Below the pieces are notes generated by a model. That model had not been told where the DNA came from, made no database searches, and saw only the letters and a list, made by a program, of their open reading frames with translations. From Parvularculaceae bacterium (GTDB lineage: Bacteria > Pseudomonadota > Alphaproteobacteria > Caulobacterales > Parvularculaceae), in NCBI GenBank assembly GCA_021776475.1, contig JAJFFV010000006.1:806001-870000 (forward strand): a stretch of DNA of 64,000 bases. The letters run 5' to 3'. This document shows, one piece after another, positions 21,750 through 33,478 of this stretch; position 1 is the first letter of the stretch, and each line of letters starts with the position of its first letter. The translations under genes and the position numbers were made by a program.

Positions 21750-21969
21750 TGGCAAACGCCTGCAACTCGTAAATTTGTGGTAAATCTTGACTCACAGGTC
21801 GCTCGAGATGAGAGATAGAAGGCTGTTTTCATCTACGCGGTGCAAGTTGAAAAATACGAGCACGAGAGCTACCTGTTATTGCGCTGAGCTCTACTGCCAA
21901 AGAATGCGGCCAACGCTGGTCAGACGAAGGAGGAAGATTCGGGCTTCTGCTGATAAAATGTGGTTAAAA

Positions 21970-22015
21970 TGGCGCGAGTGACGGGGCTCGAACCCGCGAC
22001 CTCCGGCGTGACAGT
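21970..22015 (-). tRNA. 3' fragment of tRNA-Asp(GTC), attachment site
   Basis: Minus-strand sequence from the anticodon loop CTGTCAC (anticodon GTC) through the 3' anticodon stem GCCGG, variable loop, T-arm with TTCGAGC, acceptor strand and encoded CCA. The bases 5' of the loop do not pair with GCCGG and no D-arm is present, so the gene is cut at the anticodon loop. This is what a tyrosine integrase leaves at one end after inserting into a tRNA gene. The integrase gene starts 365 bases to the right. Confidence 0.85.
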
Positions 22016-22379: not shown

Positions 22380-23657
22380 ATGCCACGTAGAAGCGCCCGA
22401 AAGCTGACCAAACGATACATAGATTCCCTAGAACCGGTGACCGGCAATGACTATACGGTTTGGGATTCTGAACTGACTGGATTTGGCCTACGCGTAAAAC
22501 CGTCTGGTCTGAAGTCATTTCAGATCAAGTATTACACTCCTACCCAAAAACAGCGAAAAGCCACTCTGGGCAAATTCGGCAGTATCACGGTCGAACAAGC
22601 GAGAAAGCTGGCGCAGAGAGAGCTTGGAAAAGTGGCGGCTGGACGCGATCCGATCCTTGAAACACGTCAGCAAAAAGGTGTTTTGACCGTCGCCGAATTG
22701 TGTGACGAATATTACGAAAAAGCCGTGGCGGGCAAAATACTGTACCGAAACAGGCCCAAAAAACCGACCACGCTTGCGACCGACAAAGGTCGAATTACCC
22801 GGCACATAAAACCATTGATAGGCGACAGGCAAATTAACGCCTTAACAAGGCGCGAAATTGAAAAATTTATGCACGACGTTCGAGACGGTAAAACCGCTGT
22901 CGATGTCAAAACTGGTCACCGGGGGCGTGCAATTGTCACCGGCGGACAGCAAGTCGCATCCAAATCAGTTTTCCTCCTGTCAGCTATGTATCGTTACGCA
23001 TTGAAGAATGATCTTGTCGAGTTCAATCCATGTTTAGGCATTGAAAAGCCAGCAGAAGGGAGACGAGATCGATATTTAAGGGAACACGAATATCAAGCGC
23101 TTGGTAACGGTCTGAAAAATACACTGAACGCAAACATTAGCCCGATTATTTGCAAAGCGCTCATCGCGTTATTGTTGACCGGTTGTCGTCGCGGTGAAAT
23201 CTTAAACTTGCAGTGGCAGGAAGTTGATGTCGAAGATCGATGCCTCCGATTGAAAGATACAAAAACCGGACCTCAAATGCGCCCGTGTGGAAAAATTGCT
23301 CTCGATTTTTTTACTTCTATGGGTCCTGGCCGAAAAGGCGAATGGGTATTCCCATCTAACCACACAAATGGCCCAATTACAGAAGTGCGTAATCAACTCA
23401 ATAACATCTGTGAAGCGACGAAGTTGTCGGGAGTGTCACCTCACATATTCCGACACAGCTATGCCACAGTTGCGTTCGAACTAGGATATAGTGAACTAAT
23501 CATTGCCGGTCTTCTTGGGCACCATCTATCTAGCGTCACAAGTCGCTATGCACATAAAGTTGATCATGTGTTGTCGGATGCAGCTGATCAGGTAAGTGAA
23601 ACGATCTGGCATCGCTTGTTTGGCAGTAAAAATAAGTTGCAGATCCTCGCCGCCTGA
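22380..23657 (+). CDS. int: Tyrosine-type site-specific integrase
   Basis: A 425-residue tyrosine recombinase. Residues 20-100 form an Arm-DNA-binding domain (WDSELTGFGLRV...LGKFGSITVEQAR), 105-225 the SAM-like core-binding domain, and 235-400 the catalytic domain. Catalytic residues are visible: Arg in TGCRRGE (270-271), Lys in KDTKTG (292-295), HIFR (355-358), His in GLLGHH (381-382) and Tyr390. It inserts and excises the element at the adjacent tRNA-Asp site. It appears intact. Confidence 0.95.
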   Translation: MPRRSARKLTKRYIDSLEPVTGNDYTVWDSELTGFGLRVKPSGLKSFQIKYYTPTQKQRKATLGKFGSITVEQARKLAQRELGKVAAGRDPILETRQQKGVLTVAELCDEYYEKAVAGKILYRNRPKKPTTLATDKGRITRHIKPLIGDRQINALTRREIEKFMHDVRDGKTAVDVKTGHRGRAIVTGGQQVASKSVFLLSAMYRYALKNDLVEFNPCLGIEKPAEGRRDRYLREHEYQALGNGLKNTLNANISPIICKALIALLLTGCRRGEILNLQWQEVDVEDRCLRLKDTKTGPQMRPCGKIALDFFTSMGPGRKGEWVFPSNHTNGPITEVRNQLNNICEATKLSGVSPHIFRHSYATVAFELGYSELIIAGLLGHHLSSVTSRYAHKVDHVLSDAADQVSETIWHRLFGSKNKLQILAA

Positions 23658-23687: not shown

Positions 23688-24016
23688 TGACCTGCGCCTC
23701 TTGGCTCCCGCGTTTATTTAGAGAGTCCTGCTGCTGAATAGCTCAAAGTTTTCGGTTTGGCGAGCGCGGTGTGCGTGGAGCCATCCAATAGCTCAAGCGC
23801 ACGCCGCGCGGTTGCCGGTGATTGTCCGTTCAAAGCTGAATGCGGCCGGATGTTGTTGTAGTCATAGCGCCATCGGGCGATTTTGCGCCGAGCGTCAGCG
23901 AGGCTCGTAAATACTTCCTCATTGAGCAACTCGTCACGCAATCGGCCATTGAATGATTCAATGAATGCGTTCTGCGTCGGTTTGCCGTTTGACGCATTCC
24001 GGACGCATCCAACCAC
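23688..24016 (-). mobile_element. IS3-family transposase fragment
   Basis: The minus-strand frame 23714-24016 encodes about 100 residues of the C-terminal DDE integrase core of an IS3-type Orf[17 protein letters not shown] with the last catalytic Glu, then [16 protein letters not shown]. The first two Asp residues and the rest of the element are missing on the right, where the glycosyltransferase gene ends. A TGACCTGCGCC at 23688 could be the IS end. A dead remnant that marks past rearrangement between integrase and cargo. Confidence 0.8.
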
Positions 24017-24053: not shown

Positions 24054-25151
24054 CTAATGCGCCGATGAATCCGCGAATTCAATAAGTTCCACCGGTCTCT
24101 CATCTATTGCTGAAAGTCCTTTGCTCAAGACGGCGCTGGGATTGGCCATCGCGGCTTCGCGCGAAAAAGTTCCGAATATCGATGTTATTAGGCTCATTTC
24201 GCGGGGTGCACAGAGCGTAGCAACATTGGGCCTCAACAGGACCCCAATGAATTTCGGCGCCAGCGAGAATAAGATCATCAGGTGGAGCCTTCGCAACTCG
24301 ATTTCGTGTTCAAGATTTAGGGCGGAAGCCAAATTAAATTCGTCTAATTTCCGTGGCGGTCCTCCAACGCGGAGCCAACGCTCAATCCATGCTCGCTCCC
24401 TTGGAAATCCAGCCGTTGAAAAATATAGCGCTGCATCCGCGTAGAGTTTCCGGCGAGATGGATACGCCACAGCTTCGACGACTACGGACTTCGAGGCCCC
24501 CTTAAGCTTGGCCTTCATGAAGAGGCGCGTCGTCTCTGCGAATAGTTCATCACCACGCTGATTGAATTCTCGAACATGGCCACCCCAGGACAAAAAGTCA
24601 GCTAGGCGGTACGCAGCGACTTTGTCGTCAACGATAATGTCCTCATTCCGTTCGACGCAAATACCTGCAACAGATTCATCAACGTGATCACACAAAGCAA
24701 TGAAAGCGCTGTGCTTCGTTAGAAATTCCGGAGTGGGCGTGGCAAGCCCTTCGATAAGCACGCCTGGGCCGCACTCACATGAGCGCTTTCGCATTTTCCT
24801 GACATAGCCAGGCCCATAGTGCGTATCCGCATCCGCTTGCACGATGAGGGTCTCGTGTGGCCGGAAACCGTTCGCCTCGGCTGCTTTTCCGGCGCGAAGA
24901 GCGCCTGCGTGGCGCGGCGGCGCATAGCCTCGTTGATTTTCAATTTCTATGTGAACACTCCCAGGCGGGCTCGAAGCGGCGACACTTTCCATTACGGCGA
25001 GCGTGTCGTCATCTGACGCGTTATCGACCAACACTAGAACACAGTCTTTTTCGGCAGCGTTATCAGCGCCGCAACCAAACCCGAAAGACTTGCAAGTCTG
25101 TTCGAGGCCTTTCTCTTCATTCAAACAAGGAATCACGATCGCCGCCATCAT
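24054..25151 (-). CDS. Family 2 glycosyltransferase of the RiPP operon
   Basis: About 365 residues from the ATG at 25151, which overlaps the stop of the preceding gene (ATGA); a second ATG follows at once. The N-terminus VIPCLNEEKGLEQ and VLVDNASDDDTL are the GT-A nucleotide-binding strands, and QADADTHYGPGYV contains the DxD metal motif. A hydrophobic stretch (MILFSLAPKFIGVLL) lies near residue 290. In the operon with a radical SAM peptide maturase it could glycosylate the peptide, or build an unrelated glycan; the acceptor is unknown. Last gene of the operon. Confidence 0.82.
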   Translation of the reverse strand: MMAAIVIPCLNEEKGLEQTCKSFGFGCGADNAAEKDCVLVLVDNASDDDTLAVMESVAASSPPGSVHIEIENQRGYAPPRHAGALRAGKAAEANGFRPHETLIVQADADTHYGPGYVRKMRKRSCECGPGVLIEGLATPTPEFLTKHSAFIALCDHVDESVAGICVERNEDIIVDDKVAAYRLADFLSWGGHVREFNQRGDELFAETTRLFMKAKLKGASKSVVVEAVAYPSRRKLYADAALYFSTAGFPRERAWIERWLRVGGPPRKLDEFNLASALNLEHEIELRRLHLMILFSLAPKFIGVLLRPNVATLCAPREMSLITSIFGTFSREAAMANPSAVLSKGLSAIDERPVELIEFADSSAH

Positions 25152-25729
25152 ACGCGTACGCCACTTCTCACTAGATTTTGACGCGCTTTCCTGTGCAGAC
25201 ATTCGCCGAACGGGCCGTGAACAGCTTGACGGGCCATGGTTAGAGATTGTTGACACCGCGGGGAGCATGGCACGTGACTGATTGCCGATTTCCCCGCCAG
25301 ATATCCGCTGGGATCGATCGCCTTAAAGCTCCCAACATAAGCTCTTGATGCCATTTGAGCGGCCCAGGCGTCGATGCTTGCTTCGCCGACTCGCGCCGCG
25401 GCTCTAACACAGCAATTCGGATAACCAAGCGCTAAACCGAAAGCCTTCGTATGCTCCGACGGATCACGATCAATTGCAAGAACACGTCGACAGAGGCCAG
25501 GTTTGAGTGCAACGACAATAAAACCTTCATTGTCGAGGCACGTGTAGCAACCTAATCGCGAGAGCCATCGCGTTACGTCATCCGCATTATATGGCGTTTG
25601 GATCTCTGTTCGAATTACTGGACGAACTCCGCTCAACAAGTGAACAAGGTCGATTGTGGCCGAGGGCTTCAGCAGACCTGGCGGCGAACGCAAGCACCGT
25701 TTCAACCGCGCTGTCGCATCATAATGCAT
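25148..25729 (-). CDS. DUF483-like cysteine-containing protein
   Basis: A 193-residue protein with two Cys clusters: GYPNCCVRAAARVGE near residue 104 and SHVPCSPRCQQSL near residue 150. Their order and spacing recall DUF483-type proteins, whose function is not known; the Cys could bind metal or a cluster. It overlaps both neighbours (28 bases with the GNAT gene, ATGA with the glycosyltransferase), so it is translated as part of the RiPP operon. Function not assigned. Confidence 0.6.
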   Translation of the reverse strand: MHYDATARLKRCLRSPPGLLKPSATIDLVHLLSGVRPVIRTEIQTPYNADDVTRWLSRLGCYTCLDNEGFIVVALKPGLCRRVLAIDRDPSEHTKAFGLALGYPNCCVRAAARVGEASIDAWAAQMASRAYVGSFKAIDPSGYLAGKSAISHVPCSPRCQQSLTMARQAVHGPFGECLHRKARQNLVRSGVRV

Positions 25730-26160
25730 TGGGAATGACCTGTTGGAGTGGAGTTAACGAAGCCGGCTTCCTCCGCTGCTCGTCGAGACGCGTGATTAGA
25801 CTTCCTCATATGAGCGTAGATGGTTTCGTATTCACTTGCTTCGCATGCGAGCCTATACGCCACTCGGCCAATATTCCGGCCTTGGCTTGGTGCGTTTAAG
25901 TAAATCTGAATCGATGCGTGCGGGCCAAGGGGAGGCTCGTCAATTTGATTTATGAAGATGACGCCAGCTCTCGCGCCTTGGGCATCTATGCGCCATGCCT
26001 CCCCGCCCTTCCCGCCGCCTCGGCCCGGCGTGCCCTTAGTTCGAACAAGCCTGATATCGTCGGGATAAACGGGCACTTTATCGCTTCGCTTGGCGACCGA
26101 GCGTGGCTTTGGCGTCGGCCGGGTGGGCTTGCTCCGTTTCGCGCTAGGCTTTTTAACCAT
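25702..26160 (-). CDS. GNAT-like acetyltransferase of the RiPP operon
   Basis: A 152-residue protein. The first 35 residues are Lys/Arg/Pro-rich and probably disordered. Residues 65-145 have the GNAT pattern: a GRNIGRVAYRLACE acyl-CoA loop and helix, then YAHMRKSNHASRRAAEEAGF, the typical C-terminal helix where residues contact CoA. It overlaps the gene before it by 8 bases. It might acetylate the peptide product as tailoring or self-protection, which is inference from context. Confidence 0.68.
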   Translation of the reverse strand: MVKKPSAKRSKPTRPTPKPRSVAKRSDKVPVYPDDIRLVRTKGTPGRGGGKGGEAWRIDAQGARAGVIFINQIDEPPLGPHASIQIYLNAPSQGRNIGRVAYRLACEASEYETIYAHMRKSNHASRRAAEEAGFVNSTPTGHSQCIMMRQRG

Positions 26161-27154
26161 CTAGCGCCTCCAAGCCTTGCCGCAAGAGGCTGTCCGAGGC
26201 CTCCCAGAATTCGGCTGGAAAGAAGCCCGGAGAATAAGCGATGACGACGTCCTCGATTTGGCCACGACGCAGCGCGCGGTTCAGCGCGCCCGTGAGTTCG
26301 CCGATACGTAGAAGCACATCGTCGAGCGGTGGATCGAGGCGTTCAAGCCGCGTCTGCCACGAACTGTCGCCATCATACCGATTGTTGAAATAATCCATAT
26401 CGATGTGCAGCAAACAGGGGCGGTCACCAATGCCGCAGAGCCACTCGTCAAGAGACGAAGTCGCGCGATAAACGCCGGGTCCTGTCCCCAGCTCCTTGAC
26501 ATCAAGCCCGATGCTAGGCCGCGGCGAGCCGGGATGAAGAAGGCTGTCTTCCTCCAAAGTCATTCTCATAGCGTAGTCGGTTGCGCCTGTTATTTTCGGC
26601 GCTTGCCCAAGGTGGCGAACTTCCGTGCGCGGAAACGCGTGCAAGAACGGCGTAAGAAAGCTTCCCATGCCGATGGCGCCGCTTTCGATAGCGCTACGGA
26701 CTTGATCGGGGCGCGCGATCTCGACCATGTTTGAAGTGATCGCGTCCCAAAGTCCGCGCTCATCTGCGATTAGCCGAGGTGGTGCCAGGTCCCGATGATC
26801 ATCAACGTGAAGCACGACAACATCGTCGACCGCGCCTCCCCGCGCCAACCATTCGCTCCAACTGTGCAATGTCCATGTGTCGTAAAGAGCCGTTAAAATC
26901 TTCCCTGATCTGCGATATGACAACGCCATCCGGTCAAGCGAAAGCTGCCGGTCCCACCATTCCAAGCCGAGCGGCAGTTTAGGGTCTACGTGGCGATCGA
27001 GATCGCCGGGCCAATAGAGCTTAAGTCGCCAAGCGTCGCCTGCTCGCTCAGCGATTGCGTCCTTGTCGCAAAAATACTCACGGAGCGCGCCGTGCCTGTC
27101 ATGGGCTGAAACTGGCAACCGATCCGCAGGTACGAGCAGCATTTCAAGCGGCAA
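26153..27154 (-). CDS. UPF0489 family protein, candidate peptide arginase
   Basis: A 333-residue protein with ureohydrolase-like metal motifs: VLHVDDHRDL (residues 114-123) and LLHIDMDYFNNRYDGD (248-263), plus an MGSFLTPFLH segment (163-172). This set fits UPF0489, the family of the peptide arginase OspR that converts Arg to ornithine in RiPP precursors (landornamide-type pathways). Here it is coupled by an 11-base overlap to a radical SAM peptide maturase, and the precursor C-terminus contains three Arg. The activity is inferred, but family, neighbours and substrate composition agree. Confidence 0.75.
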   Translation of the reverse strand: MPLEMLLVPADRLPVSAHDRHGALREYFCDKDAIAERAGDAWRLKLYWPGDLDRHVDPKLPLGLEWWDRQLSLDRMALSYRRSGKILTALYDTWTLHSWSEWLARGGAVDDVVVLHVDDHRDLAPPRLIADERGLWDAITSNMVEIARPDQVRSAIESGAIGMGSFLTPFLHAFPRTEVRHLGQAPKITGATDYAMRMTLEEDSLLHPGSPRPSIGLDVKELGTGPGVYRATSSLDEWLCGIGDRPCLLHIDMDYFNNRYDGDSSWQTRLERLDPPLDDVLLRIGELTGALNRALRRGQIEDVVIAYSPGFFPAEFWEASDSLLRQGLEALDG

Positions 27155-29282
27155 CCGCGTCTACTTGTCGTCGCGCCGCATCGAGGACTGCAACCAGTTC
27201 TCGTCCGGCTGGCGTAAGCGGACAGTGCGACAACGTCTTGAACGCGGTCTCCAAATTCGCATCGGTTTCCGCTAATTGGCTAATCGCGCGTTGTTTCATC
27301 CGTGAAGGACCCCGCTCGCGCACATGCAACCAATATCTGCGCAACTCGACAAATACGAAAACGGCGTGAAGCAAACCTGAAGGCGGCCGCAAATCCTCTC
27401 GCCACGGCGACACTACGCTGACGTCGGTCGCCTCGACCATGCTAGACACGCGCTCAAGCAGGTAAAGCTTTTGATGGCGATGTTCGTGGATTAACGAGTC
27501 TGCTAGGTCATATGGATCAATGAAGCCAGCATCCTGAACAACTGAAACAAATAAGGCGCCCGGGACAGTATTGTCGCTGAACGAGACGATCTTATCGGGC
27601 AACGCTAAAGGGTCGCGGACAAACTGAATCGCTCGACAAATGCGACGCATCTCGACGTAAAGCTCCGGGCGCCAAGCTTCAACAATGCTCAAAGCCTCCG
27701 TCACGACGGTCATCGCGCCACGCAAAATCGCGTCCGGCTCAAAAACTATCGCCGATCCGAACGGAGCCCTCAGCCAGGGGTCATCTTCTGCGACACACAG
27801 CCCAATCGACGCGTTGGCCTTTTCCTCCGTTAGAAAGTTGAGATATGTTGGGTCGGCGGTCAGCGGAGCGCCGTCCACCGCGTGAAGGGCGCGACCAGCG
27901 GCGGTCGTTCGCAACGTCCGTTGCCAAGCTATCGCGCCGGGATACATGGCAATTTCATCGAATTTTTCAGCATTCAATTCTAAAAGTGCGCGGACCGCGT
28001 CGTCATGATCGCCGAGCAGATTGAGCGCGTCGATAAGATTAGCCCGTTCCTCCTTGCGCGCTTCTGAGTAGAGAAAATCCATGATGGGACCAGCGCGTTC
28101 CGCCAGTTCGAAAAAGCGATAATCGACAGAGAAAGCTTGACGTTCCTGTTCGGCTTGCACGCTTTCGCCTAGGCTTTGTTCGACGCGTCTTCGAGCATGC
28201 TGGATCAAGGCGAGCCACTCACGACAGTATATTGTTGGATTGTCGAAATGGCCGTCGCCGTATCTGTGGGGCAGTGATCCGCCGCCACAAATTTCAACAA
28301 CCACGCAGGATCGGCACGTCTCGCATAAACCGTCTTTGTGCAACTTGGACCGGTGCGCGGCTACCGCAGCAGAGGCGGCGACGTCCGCGATTTCAGTATC
28401 GCCTACCGCGCCGATCAATCGAGTCGCATCTTGGCCGACAACTTTCAACACATCCAGATCGTGATACGATCCGTCAGTCTCGATCGTAATCAAACTCAAA
28501 TCGCCAAGTCCGAACGCGTCCGTGGGCGAAGGCAAGCCGCTCAACACGTCGAGCAGTCCCTCAAAAGTGCGCACAGGCATATGAGGATATTTGTCAAACC
28601 AAAGGTCGAACGCAGAAATCAGCCAATTCAGGTACAAATCTGGATCTTCTTCGCGTCCCGGCGGCGGCCGGTCGTGATGTGCGTCGGGTAACAGGAAGTC
28701 GAGCTTTGAGGGCTGTTGTTGGGTGAAAAACTCGAAAAGCGTTTCCGGCGATGTCTTCGGATCGATAACGGCGATGACGCCTGCAAATACTTTGGGACGC
28801 TTCTGCAATCGCTTATATGCGGCGAAAACGCGATCAAAGCTGGATCGGCCCTTTCGCGTGGTGCGGTGCAGATCATTGACTTGCTGGGGACCATCGAGGC
28901 TGAGCGACACCGAAATGTCTGCTGATTCGAGAAGCTCGAGCGCGTGCTCAGTCAGAAGCAGACCATTGGTCTGCAAGGCCACGTCTACTGTTGCAGCGTC
29001 ACCAACTGATTCTCGTAGCAAGGTGGCAAGCTCGACAATAGAATCGACGCCCGCGAGCAATGGCTCACCGCCATGAAACACGACCAAACAACGTTGGAGT
29101 TTCGTCTCACGGACGTATTTGCTAAGGCGCGCCGCAAAGGCGTTTTTGTTTTCAGTAGATAGGAAACGCGGCATAGAGCGCCAGCTCTGATCCGCATGAT
29201 GATAGACGTAGCAATAATCGCAATCGAGGTTACAGCGCGACGCCAGCTTTACAAGAAACGTCGATATTCTGGCGGGCGCCAC
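27144..29282 (-). CDS. FxsB-like radical SAM/SPASM maturase fused to HExxH domain
   Basis: A 712-residue protein starting with GTG at 29282, nine bases beyond the precursor stop. The radical SAM motif CNLDCDYC (C17, C21, C24) is followed by FHGGEPLL and a SPASM-like Cys region (LCETCRSCVVVEICGGG...YCREW) near residues 315-355, as in FxsB-type maturases that make three-residue cyclophanes between an aromatic ring and a side chain two residues on. The C-terminal half carries HEHRH (599-603), matching the HExxH domain linked with peptide beta-hydroxylation. One polypeptide may thus cross-link and hydroxylate the neighbouring peptide. Confidence 0.85.
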   Translation of the reverse strand: MAPARISTFLVKLASRCNLDCDYCYVYHHADQSWRSMPRFLSTENKNAFAARLSKYVRETKLQRCLVVFHGGEPLLAGVDSIVELATLLRESVGDAATVDVALQTNGLLLTEHALELLESADISVSLSLDGPQQVNDLHRTTRKGRSSFDRVFAAYKRLQKRPKVFAGVIAVIDPKTSPETLFEFFTQQQPSKLDFLLPDAHHDRPPPGREEDPDLYLNWLISAFDLWFDKYPHMPVRTFEGLLDVLSGLPSPTDAFGLGDLSLITIETDGSYHDLDVLKVVGQDATRLIGAVGDTEIADVAASAAVAAHRSKLHKDGLCETCRSCVVVEICGGGSLPHRYGDGHFDNPTIYCREWLALIQHARRRVEQSLGESVQAEQERQAFSVDYRFFELAERAGPIMDFLYSEARKEERANLIDALNLLGDHDDAVRALLELNAEKFDEIAMYPGAIAWQRTLRTTAAGRALHAVDGAPLTADPTYLNFLTEEKANASIGLCVAEDDPWLRAPFGSAIVFEPDAILRGAMTVVTEALSIVEAWRPELYVEMRRICRAIQFVRDPLALPDKIVSFSDNTVPGALFVSVVQDAGFIDPYDLADSLIHEHRHQKLYLLERVSSMVEATDVSVVSPWREDLRPPSGLLHAVFVFVELRRYWLHVRERGPSRMKQRAISQLAETDANLETAFKTLSHCPLTPAGRELVAVLDAARRQVDAVAA

Positions 29283-29290
29283 ATGAACGC

Positions 29291-29473
29291 TCAGGACCGG
29301 CTATGCCGGTGGTGCATGCGGTCATAGCTCGTGATCACTTCGCTGACTTGCGCGCCAGAAAGCACTCGAGATTGAAGGCGTTGAAGCGCCGGATTCACAG
29401 GGCGCGTTTTGAGCAACGCATTGCGCAAATCGCCATTGTTTTTCGCGGCGTCCGTTTCTAGGGCAGCTTGCAT
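29291..29473 (-). CDS. RiPP precursor peptide
   Basis: A 60-residue peptide from the ATG at 29473, which has a strong Shine-Dalgarno (AAAGGAGGT, 5-base spacing). An upstream in-frame start at 29518 lacks this. The N-terminal 45 residues are a helical leader (NPALQRLQSRVLSGAQVSEV). The C-terminus SYDRMHHRHSRS holds three aromatic-x-Arg triplets: YDR, HHR and HSR. Three-residue cyclophane maturases act on such aromatic-x-x units. It lies directly before the maturase gene. Confidence 0.78.
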   Translation of the reverse strand: MQAALETDAAKNNGDLRNALLKTRPVNPALQRLQSRVLSGAQVSEVITSYDRMHHRHSRS

Positions 29474-30008: not shown

Positions 30009-31172
30009 TTAACGCCCCATTTTTGACGGTCGCGGCAGCACAATGACGCGTTCAATCCCGTCTATGCTTTCAAGCCCAGACCGTAGAGTCCGATACTCTT
30101 CCGTTTGCCTCGTTTCATCCCAAACGAACGCGATGATATGTTTGTATGACGTGGACTTAGCGAGATAGAGTGCACTGTCGGCAGCAATTTCTTCGGTTAG
30201 CTTGCGAAACGCACCTTGACCGCTCTTTTTCAAATATTTCACTTCGATAATTGTGTGTAAAGACGGGACGCCAAGATCGTATCTCGGCGAAACGTGACCG
30301 ACTTTCGGAAGGAATTCTTCGTCGACCAAGTCCGGGAATACGGGCTTAAGCACCGACCAGAGCAGATTCTGAACATGATATTCGTGGTTGATTTCCCATT
30401 TCTCCAGCGGCGCTGCTTTGACGCGTTGCTTCGTTTCAAAAGTCCAATGGGAAAGGGAAGTATCAATGCGTTCAAGAACCTTGATTAAGTCGGTTAGAAT
30501 TGACGTGCGCAAAGATATTGTGTCGAGAGCCGACGCACAGGCCTCAAAGACGGCAGCGTTGATTGCTTTTTCTGTGATGTCGTCCAAATTCTGAAACCGA
30601 AGCAGATCGGTCCACGCTGCTTCCAACGATGATTCAGGTGCGGCGTGTCCGAATGCTTGCGCAATGGCCACCCTGCGTCGATCGCTGCCAAGCGCATCAA
30701 AACCGTCCCCGCGCAAAAGCGCCTTAGCTGCAGTAACGAGATCCGACTGGAAGCAATCGTCTTTGAGCGTGTCACCTGACCGGTCCAACACCGAAAGTAG
30801 CCAGTCTTGCCGCGCTTCCACACTGGTCACCATTCCCGCCACAACGCCAAGAAGCGCAACACCGTCAATCTCAAATTGGGGCGCTCGTCCTTCCGCAAAA
30901 AACGTTCGCCCGGCCAATTGGTCAACTTCCTGTTTAAAGCGCCGGAGAAACGTCTCGTTAGACACGCCAGCAGCGAGCGCATATCCCATTCTCGCTATAG
31001 TTTTGTAAGTTACACCGGTTCGTTCGACATCCATGTCGTCCGCGATCAAGGCGTCGAACCGTAGCCTTTCCGATGGCGCTACGAATGCGGCGAACGCCGA
31101 GATATGCAGCGGAGCCGTATTGAAATCCTCATCAGTTAGAGCGAACGCATTTTTGACGTCTGATAAATTCAT
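30009..31172 (-). CDS. Argonaute-associated PD-(D/E)XK nuclease
   Basis: About 387 residues. The ATG at 31172 overlaps the Argonaute stop (TAATG); the longer reading starts with TTG at 31184. The C-terminal third has a PD-(D/E)XK core: RYDLGVPS (Asp303 of the longer reading), then TIIEVKYLKK (E314-V-K316), followed by a helix with EEIAADSALY. The N-terminal 250 residues are helical and unidentified. Coupling to a long pAgo that has lost catalytic residues matches the nuclease partners (AgaN-like) of long-B Argonaute systems, which degrade DNA when the Argonaute recognises an invader. Confidence 0.83.
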   Translation of the reverse strand: MNLSDVKNAFALTDEDFNTAPLHISAFAAFVAPSERLRFDALIADDMDVERTGVTYKTIARMGYALAAGVSNETFLRRFKQEVDQLAGRTFFAEGRAPQFEIDGVALLGVVAGMVTSVEARQDWLLSVLDRSGDTLKDDCFQSDLVTAAKALLRGDGFDALGSDRRRVAIAQAFGHAAPESSLEAAWTDLLRFQNLDDITEKAINAAVFEACASALDTISLRTSILTDLIKVLERIDTSLSHWTFETKQRVKAAPLEKWEINHEYHVQNLLWSVLKPVFPDLVDEEFLPKVGHVSPRYDLGVPSLHTIIEVKYLKKSGQGAFRKLTEEIAADSALYLAKSTSYKHIIAFVWDETRQTEEYRTLRSGLESIDGIERVIVLPRPSKMGR

Positions 31173-33478
31173 TACAGAAACCAAAGTGTTCGACCGATTT
31201 CACGAAATCGCACAGCATCGTCATCCCAGGCAGGGATTTGGCGCAGTCCGACCAATCTTTTGGCGATCAAATCCGAATATTTGATCGTGATGGGATACGC
31301 CTCCGGTGACATTACCCGCCACGAATGCGCGGTAAAGTCATAGGCCTGGCGTGCAAGATAGGTCATGTCCTTAAAGGTCGAGTGCCGATGAAGCTTTAGC
31401 AGACATGCCCGTGGCATCCCATCTGTCGCCTGCTTGAGCTCTGATGCGCCGGCGAATACTACCAGCGATTCAAAATCACCTAGTTTGAGGTGAATGCCGC
31501 GCGACGGGCCGAGCACGCCTCGCTTCTTTGAAGCGTCCCGCTCCCATGCTGGAAAGCCCTGTTGATCGTGATCGAAAATAACAAACGGATGGCTGGGTGC
31601 AATGTGGACAAACGCGAAACTCACATTGTCCAGTCCCAATGCCTCAACCGCCGTCTTGATGGCTTCAGCTTCAACATCCTTGCTCGGCTTAAACATATGA
31701 AAGATCAGCCGGACCTGATCTGACGCTTTCCAGTTGTCTTCTTCGCGGACGCGCGCGATCGTATGCTTGAGCGTCTCCGCGAGCGCCGCTGCGTATTCTT
31801 CAAAGGCGACTACATTGGTCCGCTCTGTCAGGTGATAGCTGCCGTCACTCGAAAACACGGTCGTTATACCGACATAACGATCCCCGCCACCAAATTTGCT
31901 ACTCCTCGAAACATGCGAGCCGATACCGATAATTAGTTCGTGCCCAATCGTTTGGTCGGTGTTCAACAGCCAGGGCCGTCCGCCGAGTTTGGCGTAGGTT
32001 GCGAGACTCATATGGTTGAGTGAAAATACGAGGTTCTTGTCCGGCGTCTTCATAGTCTCCAGAGTGACGTTTTGAACGGCCACATGGTTTTTCAGGAGTA
32101 TCGCTTTGGTGCCGTAATAAGGGTTGCGATCACCCGGTAGGGATTTGAATTCCTCTTCAATTTGGACGAGTGCCAGATCCCATGTGAAACTAGCGTCGGC
32201 AGCATGTTGCATTGCCGATTCACAAGCGACTTCGTAGGCTGGCAGCGTCGCTGCTTCCGCTGTAAAGGTCATCACATTAGGTTTTTCTAAGTGAAACCGG
32301 CTGAGGAATCCGTCACCATATCGCGCTTGTTCTTTGCCACGCTGCCCAGTTAACACGTCCGGCATACCGTCCAAGAACTTTGCAACGAATTTGTCGACCT
32401 GACCCTCATATCGCGCTTGGCAGATCACGAGGATGTTCTTTTTCTTCGGTGTGAACGTTCGTTGATCGTACGGGCCATATTCCTTGATCCCGCGCTCGTT
32501 CCATTTCTGTGTGCGCGCACCGGACGGATCAAAGACGAGATCGGGATTGGCAATTTTCTCCGTTCGCGGAAAACTGGCGGCGGTGTTTGTGAGAAAACCA
32601 TTTACCTCTAACTTCGCTCCTGGAAAGGGTGCAAGTTCAAGGCTCTGCAAATAACGGAGAGTTTCGGTTATGAGCTTATGACGGCCCGGCCCGCAATGCA
32701 GCGACGCAGCATCCAGCATAGAGGCCTCTAATACGGTGTCCGCTTTTTGACCGAGGATCTGGCGGACCACCCAATCAAAGTCACGCTTGCTTGCCTGCAA
32801 CCGGGCTTGATCGGCCGCGATCCGATCATAACCGTCGCGGTGATCTTCTAGCACCAAATCGTCGCCGTCTACGGCACTAACACGGCCGATAAGCAACCCA
32901 CGATCAGCGAGCCGCGGATCGCGGCTTGGCACATCCGTTAAAACGTACCGACCGATAAGCGAAATCTGGTGTGCCATCAGATCGGCGCAGGTGGCGAGCA
33001 GCATATTCCGCACACGCGCGTCGATGACCAGCCCGAATGTCGCTTTCCCTGCGTCGTTGTAAATGCGGCGCGGCGTAAATTGCAGCAATGAACGTTTCTG
33101 CACCCATGCAGGAAGGTCAGAGTGCAGGATAAAATTTCGGCGCACATTTCCCAAAATTTCCACTGGGTAGCTCGACACGATCTCCCGTTGATCGGCAAAA
33201 GTACGTACAAGAGCCGCTTCCAGCAGGTTTTGCCACAGATACGACTCGCGCTTTATATCAACTGTGCTGACTTTGTCGCCGAGAGGTTCGACGCCTTCGA
33301 CGATCGGAATATCAATAATGCTGTCGGCACCATCTCGTCGCACGACGTGGGTTAACGCGAATTCACTGCGTAATTCCGCTAATAGGCCCTTGTCATAGGT
33401 GCGATGGCCTACATCAATTTCGGTTTCCCCTGTGATTTGCACAGGCGCAAAATTCAAGCTCAAATGCGCATCGGACAT
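31172..33478 (-). CDS. Long prokaryotic Argonaute, catalytically inactive (long-B type)
   Basis: A 768-residue protein. A MID-like region begins with KKNILVICQARYEGQ (346-360) and the PIWI domain spans about 480-768, ending in the hallmark GRTLWFL. In place of the first catalytic Asp the chain reads IIGIGSH (Gly520), the third position lies in LIFHMFKPS without Asp, and the final HYAD-type site reads IKYSD. The DEDX tetrad is therefore lost and it should bind a guide without slicing. Start ATG 33478 has an AGAGGA Shine-Dalgarno. It probably acts as guide-dependent sensor for the coupled nuclease. Confidence 0.9.
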   Translation of the reverse strand: MSDAHLSLNFAPVQITGETEIDVGHRTYDKGLLAELRSEFALTHVVRRDGADSIIDIPIVEGVEPLGDKVSTVDIKRESYLWQNLLEAALVRTFADQREIVSSYPVEILGNVRRNFILHSDLPAWVQKRSLLQFTPRRIYNDAGKATFGLVIDARVRNMLLATCADLMAHQISLIGRYVLTDVPSRDPRLADRGLLIGRVSAVDGDDLVLEDHRDGYDRIAADQARLQASKRDFDWVVRQILGQKADTVLEASMLDAASLHCGPGRHKLITETLRYLQSLELAPFPGAKLEVNGFLTNTAASFPRTEKIANPDLVFDPSGARTQKWNERGIKEYGPYDQRTFTPKKKNILVICQARYEGQVDKFVAKFLDGMPDVLTGQRGKEQARYGDGFLSRFHLEKPNVMTFTAEAATLPAYEVACESAMQHAADASFTWDLALVQIEEEFKSLPGDRNPYYGTKAILLKNHVAVQNVTLETMKTPDKNLVFSLNHMSLATYAKLGGRPWLLNTDQTIGHELIIGIGSHVSRSSKFGGGDRYVGITTVFSSDGSYHLTERTNVVAFEEYAAALAETLKHTIARVREEDNWKASDQVRLIFHMFKPSKDVEAEAIKTAVEALGLDNVSFAFVHIAPSHPFVIFDHDQQGFPAWERDASKKRGVLGPSRGIHLKLGDFESLVVFAGASELKQATDGMPRACLLKLHRHSTFKDMTYLARQAYDFTAHSWRVMSPEAYPITIKYSDLIAKRLVGLRQIPAWDDDAVRFREIGRTLWFL

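Follow-up and report, generated by a model that had tools for sequence, protein, structure and literature searches.

The window, by which we mean the whole stretch of 64,000 nucleotides from a Parvularculaceae bacterium that was analysed, carries at positions 24054-29473 an operon of six minus-strand open reading frames (ORFs), which encode a precursor peptide, a radical S-adenosylmethionine (SAM) enzyme fused to an HExxH domain, an arginase-like protein, a GNAT acyltransferase, a DUF483-like protein and a glycosyltransferase (Table 1). A sequence-only reading of this DNA had placed six such ORFs here, and re-reading of their coordinates confirmed that the six-gene operon is real. The gap between the precursor and the radical SAM gene is, however, 8 bases rather than the claimed 9. 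The overlaps of 11, 8 and 28 bases that follow were given correctly, and the last one, of 4 bases between the glycosyltransferase and the DUF483-like gene, is obtained if the former starts at the ATG at 25151 but not with the longer ORF from 25268. Immediately 5' of the precursor ATG at 29473 stands AAAGGAGG.

Table 1. Features of the operon and of its host element (window positions).
Feature	Position	Strand	Basis
Precursor peptide, 60 aa, YhhA family	29291..29473	-	NF041705
Core SYDRMHHRHSRS	29294..29329	-	Near-invariance in 24 precursors, with differing codons
Radical SAM/SPASM cyclophane synthase-HExxH fusion, 712 aa, ChlBH homologue	27144..29282	-	NF041707, TIGR04267, PDB matches
HEHRH motif, residues 599-603	27474..27488	-	
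Arginase-like protein, 333 aa, TTG start	26153..27154	-	Profile match to 8brp
Putative metal motif DDHRD (D118, H120, D122)	26789..26803	-	Invariant in 22/22 covering rows
Putative metal motif DMD (D252, D254)	26393..26401	-	Asp pair invariant in 23/23 rows
Asp92, position of the canonical Mn-A His	26879..26881	-	Alignments
GNAT acyltransferase, 152 aa	25702..26160	-	PF13302
DUF483-like Cys-rich protein, 193 aa, GYPxCC and HxPCxxxC	25148..25729	-	PF04467, below cut-off
GT2 glycosyltransferase from ATG 25151 (longer ORF start 25268)	24054..25151	-	PF00535
Tyrosine integrase of the host element	22380..23657	+	PF00589, PF13356
Attachment repeat, 3' part of tRNA-Asp	21961..22014	.	54-base direct repeat

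The precursor matches NF041705, the NCBI family of YhhA cyclophane precursors of ribosomally synthesized and post-translationally modified peptides (RiPPs), with 61 bits (cut-off 36) and, used as a query, found a single match in its own genome at E <= 0.1. The fusion protein exceeds the cut-offs of both NF041707 (YhhB; 486 bits vs. 445) and TIGR04267 (HExxH; 137 bits vs. 40), contains the radical SAM cysteine motif CxxxCxxC as CNLDCDYC, and retrieves from the PDB the radical SAM domain of ChlB (9gm3, 470 bits) as well as ChlH (8s5f, 254 bits). The reading of the locus as a RiPP operon with a cyclophane-type radical SAM enzyme fused to HExxH is thus borne out. The assignments of the GNAT acyltransferase (PF13302, 28.8 bits, Pfam gathering cut-off 25.4) and of the GT2 glycosyltransferase (PF00535, 29.1 bits, cut-off 23.3, QADADT motif present) also stood, whereas the proposed UPF0489 and DUF483 memberships are weak, as the scores for PF12640 (see below) and PF04467 (16.1 bits, cut-off 25) stay under the gathering cut-offs. 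The DUF483-like protein has Cys and His residues that are conserved across 13 sequences; its profile gave no PDB match at E <= 1.

From our point of view, the operon probably represents a triceptide RiPP cluster of the ChlA/ChlBH type, with a conserved tail of tailoring genes that includes one for an arginase step, a reading that we hold with moderate confidence. The chl cluster of Chlorogloeopsis (ChlA, ChlBH) was reportedly described by Morishita in 2024; of the characterised systems, ChlBH is the one nearest to the window. A chl locus (L085; locus numbers are our own) was present in a sample of 386 genomes of the phylum to which the cyanobacterial locus L016 belongs, and its protein showed no visible difference from the ChlB chain, and from ChlH past the tag, in the HMMER alignment (851 and 769 bits). 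It comprises, in the same order as the window, a precursor ending in TSYDRMHHRHNRS, a fused radical SAM-HExxH gene, and the arginase-like, GNAT and DUF483-like genes. The core is that of the window except for Asn at the third X, where the window has Ser58. No GT2 gene was matched within 18 kb around the chl genes, whereas the window has one, and with the 470 and 254 bits given above the fusion protein of the window has diverged from ChlB and ChlH. Since L085 shares the gene order through the DUF483-like gene and lacks the glycosyltransferase, the window can be regarded as a chl-type cluster plus a glycosyltransferase. Because ChlBH has been characterised, both cyclophane formation and beta-hydroxylation count as known steps of this cluster type, and as the chl locus also has the next three genes, the earlier designation as an undescribed pathway was overstated.

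YhhB connects Arg C-beta to C3 of Tyr and to C2 of His (PMC11002830), and the HExxH part of the ChlBH fusion adds hydroxyl groups to C-beta of Asp and His, for which the cyclophane is required (PMC12636437). The three aromatic-X-Arg motifs of the window core, YDR, HHR and HSR (Y50-D-R, H54-H-R and H57-S-R), are compatible with three cyclophane units of the YhhB type, and by homology it is highly likely that the fusion enzyme of the window carries out both cross-linking and hydroxylation. The YhhABC system of a Vibrio plasmid (L027) shares the precursor family and the YDR-x-HxR-HxR layout with the window, but its YhhB is unfused and accompanied by the 2-oxoglutarate-Fe oxygenase YhhC, and no arginase-like, GNAT, DUF483-like or glycosyltransferase gene was found there, whereas the window has all four. 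The gene combination, which had likewise been considered undescribed, has a precedent in the biphenomycin clusters (bip, bpm), for which a radical SAM enzyme, a UPF0489 arginase and an HExxH hydroxylase are reported together in one RiPP cluster (PMC12707348, PMC12257519). These clusters differ from the window by a B12-dependent radical SAM enzyme, an ortho-Tyr made by a multinuclear non-heme iron-dependent oxidative enzyme (MNIO), a TldD protease and an unrelated core. In a literature search that reached few subscription papers, neither the arginase-like nor a GNAT or DUF483 step was described for this cluster type.

Cores of RiPPs are usually variable. Among 24 precursors of the present cluster, the last 12 residues take only six forms, with the near-invariant consensus Y-x-R-M-[HY]-x-R-H-x-R-S, in which the Tyr, the three Arg, the Met, the His of the third motif and the final Ser are found in 24/24 cores; in L017, Tyr replaces the first His. 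Mean pairwise identity in these precursors is 0.89 for the core vs. 0.41 for the adjoining leader (the 30 preceding residues), and an ungapped comparison of the window precursor with that of L016 gave 92% identity in the core and 10% in the adjacent leader. The core is kept across four phyla with diverse codons, and since codons differ while residues stay, it is the protein sequence of the core that is under selection. Its near-invariance suggests a single unchanging molecule whose cellular target or ligand is itself conserved, and speaks less for an antibiotic under diversification.

The gene set occurs in the same order in distant bacteria, which for the core range from Clostridia to Alphaproteobacteria. 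In a collection of one genome per species (84,980 species), 22 loci were located by the arginase-like protein, a set that is not a full census because the peptide-pattern scan that was used favours close relatives. A radical SAM gene is present in all 22 loci, the precursor in 20, HExxH in 19, GNAT in 19, the glycosyltransferase in 15 (two of them displaced) and the DUF483-like gene in 13, and in 19/22 the GNAT gene stands immediately 3' of the arginase-like gene. The co-occurrence of the radical SAM-HExxH and arginase-like proteins, which the sequence-only reading had suggested searching for, could thus be confirmed, and the scenario named there as a refutation, namely that homologous clusters consistently lack the precursor, does not apply: of the two loci without one, L002 is truncated (its radical SAM ORF lacks the N-terminal part) and L019 lies at a contig end. 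The clostridial loci L020, L021 and L023 have an unfused radical SAM enzyme plus a second one and are devoid of HExxH; the second gene (~310 aa) lies between the precursor and the YhhB-like gene. An ABC (ATP-binding cassette) exporter-like gene adjoins the cluster in L021 and, by eye, in L034.

On plasmids, the arginase-like protein is accompanied by a radical SAM enzyme in 5/5 records (annotation was read for four, all except NZ_CP016287.1). Reverse searches by radical SAM family in samples of 385, 386, 397 and 395 genomes (E 1e-90 or 1e-100) yielded four further fused radical SAM-HExxH loci, and an arginase-like gene accompanies three of them (L085, L087 and L088). Of the unfused radical SAM enzymes from these searches and the Vibrio plasmid, seven of seven come without it (L027, L033, the second copy of L034, L086, L089, L090 and L091, with L086 and L089-L091 scoring under the YhhB cut-off), and the unfused clostridial enzymes, which were located via the arginase-like protein, do have it. 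Two yhh clusters on Rhizobium plasmids are followed just downstream by His-Xaa-Ser (hxs) RiPP genes (L025 15849-18975, L084 12142-13862). In L084 (4230-9004), which lies on the same plasmid as L008, the radical SAM-HExxH gene is split by IS21 and CBASS genes stand directly upstream.

Judged by profile comparison, the arginase-like protein is remotely homologous to the peptide arginases and fails the defining tests of the PF12640 family. The profile of its family (21 sequences) retrieves the structure of OspR (8brp) at E 1.9e-7, with the next matches at E >= 0.16. OspR has His12, Asp39, His41, Asp43, Asp165 and Asp167 as Mn ligands (PMC10028609), and five of these six are kept: D118, H120, D122, D252 and D254 correspond to Asp39, His41, Asp43, Asp165 and Asp167. 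The equivalent of His12 is residue 92, which is Asp in 19, Glu in 3 and a gap in 1 of 23 rows and hence Asp/Glu in 22/22 covering rows, an assignment that comes from a weak profile alignment (probability 79%) with three PF12640 proteins. The two-Trp spacing agrees with one of these three. The 23-row alignment includes pieces of L008, L010 and L013, whereas the 21 rows of alignment A3 leave out L008 (short), L010 (arginase-like gene fused to GNAT) and L013 (broken gene). The PF12640 peptide arginases (OspR, BipC, PbsE, FlmR and OhkR) thus share the DxHxD and DxD metal motifs with the arginase-like family at the level of remote homology, but have an EEH metal His where this family has Asp/Glu. 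Substrates of peptide arginases are found in several RiPP types (PMC12703449). A tandem pair of arginase-like genes is present in L017 (9818-12085). In phage records and viral contigs searched with the arginase-like protein, no relative was found.

Several observations weigh against a chl-type cluster with an arginase step. The arginase-like protein reaches only 15.3 bits with PF12640 (UPF0489; Pfam gathering cut-off 27) and 10.4 bits with NF052474 (FlmR/OhkR; cut-off 350), it lacks the EEH motif, and OspR Glu11 is likewise not conserved. The three Arg residues are also kept in the Vibrio precursor (ending RGQ) and in that of L034 (ending NR), both without an arginase-like gene; L034 is a fused radical SAM-HExxH locus, and its one precursor found stands beside the second, unfused radical SAM gene. 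The tail is moreover incomplete in places, GNAT being missing from the three Clostridia and the glycosyltransferase from 7/22 loci. Together with the exchange of the metal His in 22/22 covering rows, the points on the enzyme and on the Arg residues would fit a protein that is not an arginase at all but cleaves a different bond by hydrolysis, or acts as a partner that binds metal, so that the Arg residues stay intact. However, five metal ligands are invariant, the profile similarity to OspR has to be accounted for, and the replacing carboxylate could itself bind metal, which is why we regard this explanation as a serious contender that falls somewhat short of an even chance. Conversion of Arg to Orn by the arginase-like protein has about an even chance. 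The earlier proposal that a UPF0489 enzyme makes ornithine hence stands as a lead only, with the PF12640 cut-off missed and one Mn ligand altered, and the earlier interpretation as a whole is partly supported.

For the chl-type cluster with an arginase step, we propose the following course. The leader of the 60-residue precursor would be bound and the radical SAM domain would close three 3-residue cyclophanes on the core, which, extended from YhhB by homology, would be Tyr50-Arg52 (Tyr C3 to Arg C-beta), His54-Arg56 and His57-Arg59 (both His C2 to Arg C-beta). The HExxH domain would then beta-hydroxylate residues in the middle of the motifs, Asp51 and His55 being the likeliest, and the arginase-like enzyme, as a dinuclear ureohydrolase of divergent type, would probably turn at least one of the three C-beta-linked Arg residues into Orn. 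As proposals, GNAT may acylate the freed amine, GT2 may glycosylate a hydroxyl (a beta-OH, Ser58 or Ser60) and the DUF483-like protein may take part in a step linked to residue 58 of the core. Since genes for leader removal and export are not present within the operon, these steps would be provided by genes outside of it.

The last of these proposals derives from a pattern in Proteobacteria. Where a precursor was read, Ser58 goes together with a DUF483-like gene in 9/9 cases, and Asn58 with no phmmer match to the DUF483-like protein in 11/11, counts in which L008 and L025 are close copies and L087 and L088 were assigned to Proteobacteria by their source sample. On a radical SAM tree (21 rows), well-supported branches imply that the label of Ser plus DUF483 changed three times or more; a separate earlier tree covered more phyla. 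Both trees left out L002 and L008, the second one also L017-L021 and L023. Outside Proteobacteria, Asn58 occurs together with a DUF483-like gene (L016, L017, L020, L021, L023 and L085), and because of these pairs the rule is not general. One could speculate that Ser58 already bears the beta-hydroxyl that Asn would need to acquire.

A different view of the whole cluster is that the mature peptide serves as a metal ligand or peptide-derived cofactor via beta-hydroxy-Asp, beta-hydroxy-His and its imidazoles, and that the invariance of the core reflects that of the molecule. Beta-hydroxy-Asp and beta-hydroxy-His are siderophore-type ligands. The near-invariant core across four phyla with diverse codons would agree with such a role, as would the result that, in the compared loci, no gene family beyond the cluster's own is conserved alongside (an ABC ATPase family occurs in four loci, adjacent to the cluster only in L021), and the presence of metal-resistance-like genes, named by eye, on the host element. 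These genes were, however, seen in the element of the window only, neither a conserved metal transporter nor a conserved client enzyme turned up in the compared loci, and the cluster is rare (e.g., a YhhB match in 3/385 genomes of the class, own genome counted) and found on plasmids and islands, so that we consider this view rather unlikely.

The location of the operon invites yet another explanation. It sits at one end of an integrated element, beside the tyrosine integrase; the attachment repeat (Table 1; 54 bases, one mismatch) has its second copy past the window end, at 70517-70570 inside an intact tRNA-Asp, and from these positions the element, which extends beyond the window, measures ~48.6 kb. 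An IS3-type transposase fragment (23714-24016) lies directly downstream of the glycosyltransferase gene, and transfer genes, named by eye from the ORFs like those for metal resistance, are also carried. At 30009-33478, adjoining the operon, a Class II-type Argonaute gene (PADLOC pAgo_II, E 1.7e-256) overlaps an Aga helical restriction endonuclease gene (E 5e-113). The integrated element and the neighbouring Argonaute system had both been recognised before. At other loci, an Argonaute gene (pAgo) adjoins the cluster in L024, CBASS genes adjoin it in L008/L084 and lie ~5 kb away in L026, a CD-NTase gene stands beside L004, Lamassu LmuB is near L018, and SIR2-like proteins are beside the Mesorhizobium loci L003 (5125-7239) and L022 (5176-7245), there encoded on the opposite strand directly upstream of the precursor.

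These neighbours could mean that the cluster works inside the cell as a module of phage defence. One CD-NTase model gave two matches in 19 genomes, both within these loci, but it had been chosen after its sighting in the flanks. With PADLOC at 1e-60, ~15/216 flank proteins matched (>= 130 aa, from 19/22 loci with the clostridial L020, L021 and L023 left out), compared to 0/137 proteins from arbitrarily placed stretches (276 called, 140 sampled, three longest dropped; p 0.0007). Integrase flanks, however, reached ~4/125 (255 called, 138 sampled, 13 from L074 and L077, which overlap yhh loci, dropped), a difference that is not significant (Fisher p 0.22); both approximate counts take each PADLOC family name as one protein, and double-name matches would lower them. 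Of ten neighbours scanned singly, six had no match at 1e-20. For the six cluster genes at E <= 0.1, PADLOC returned only a viperin-like similarity of the radical SAM enzyme (46 bits) and weak Cas5 matches of the glycosyltransferase (E ~0.05), and none of its models fitted the tail genes credibly. The idea of a defence island was therefore demoted, being enriched over arbitrary stretches but not over integrase flanks, and the defence module appears to us very unlikely. The surroundings of the cluster are those of mobile islands, and a defence role is hypothetical. That the tail genes are mere chance neighbours of the YhhAB pair, as the come and go of the glycosyltransferase and DUF483-like genes might imply, is scarcely tenable, given the overlapping reading frames in the window and a GNAT gene that immediately follows the arginase-like one in 19/22 loci, and is already contradicted by a gene order that is conserved across phyla.

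Overall, the cluster is real, widely conserved and of a known kind, its tail is well conserved and unexplained, and its core is strikingly fixed. The most far-reaching version would combine a near-universal tri-cyclophane, hydroxylated and deguanidinated peptide, acting inside the producer as cofactor, metal ligand or immune effector on mobile islands, with a new Asp/Glu-ligand branch of ureohydrolases that acts on C-beta-crosslinked Arg; as a whole, we regard this combination as rather improbable. A core that is fixed from Clostridia to Alphaproteobacteria points to a single molecule whose job is conserved, and makes the role of a triceptide directly testable. The tail includes an arginase-like family that lies outside the models searched and has a changed metal ligand, and the presence of a DUF483-like gene, which in Proteobacteria tracks one core residue, offers a testable link between an enzyme and its site. 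As arginase-like, GNAT and DUF483-like genes also follow that of ChlBH, a system whose first two steps are known could be extended by the missing ones.

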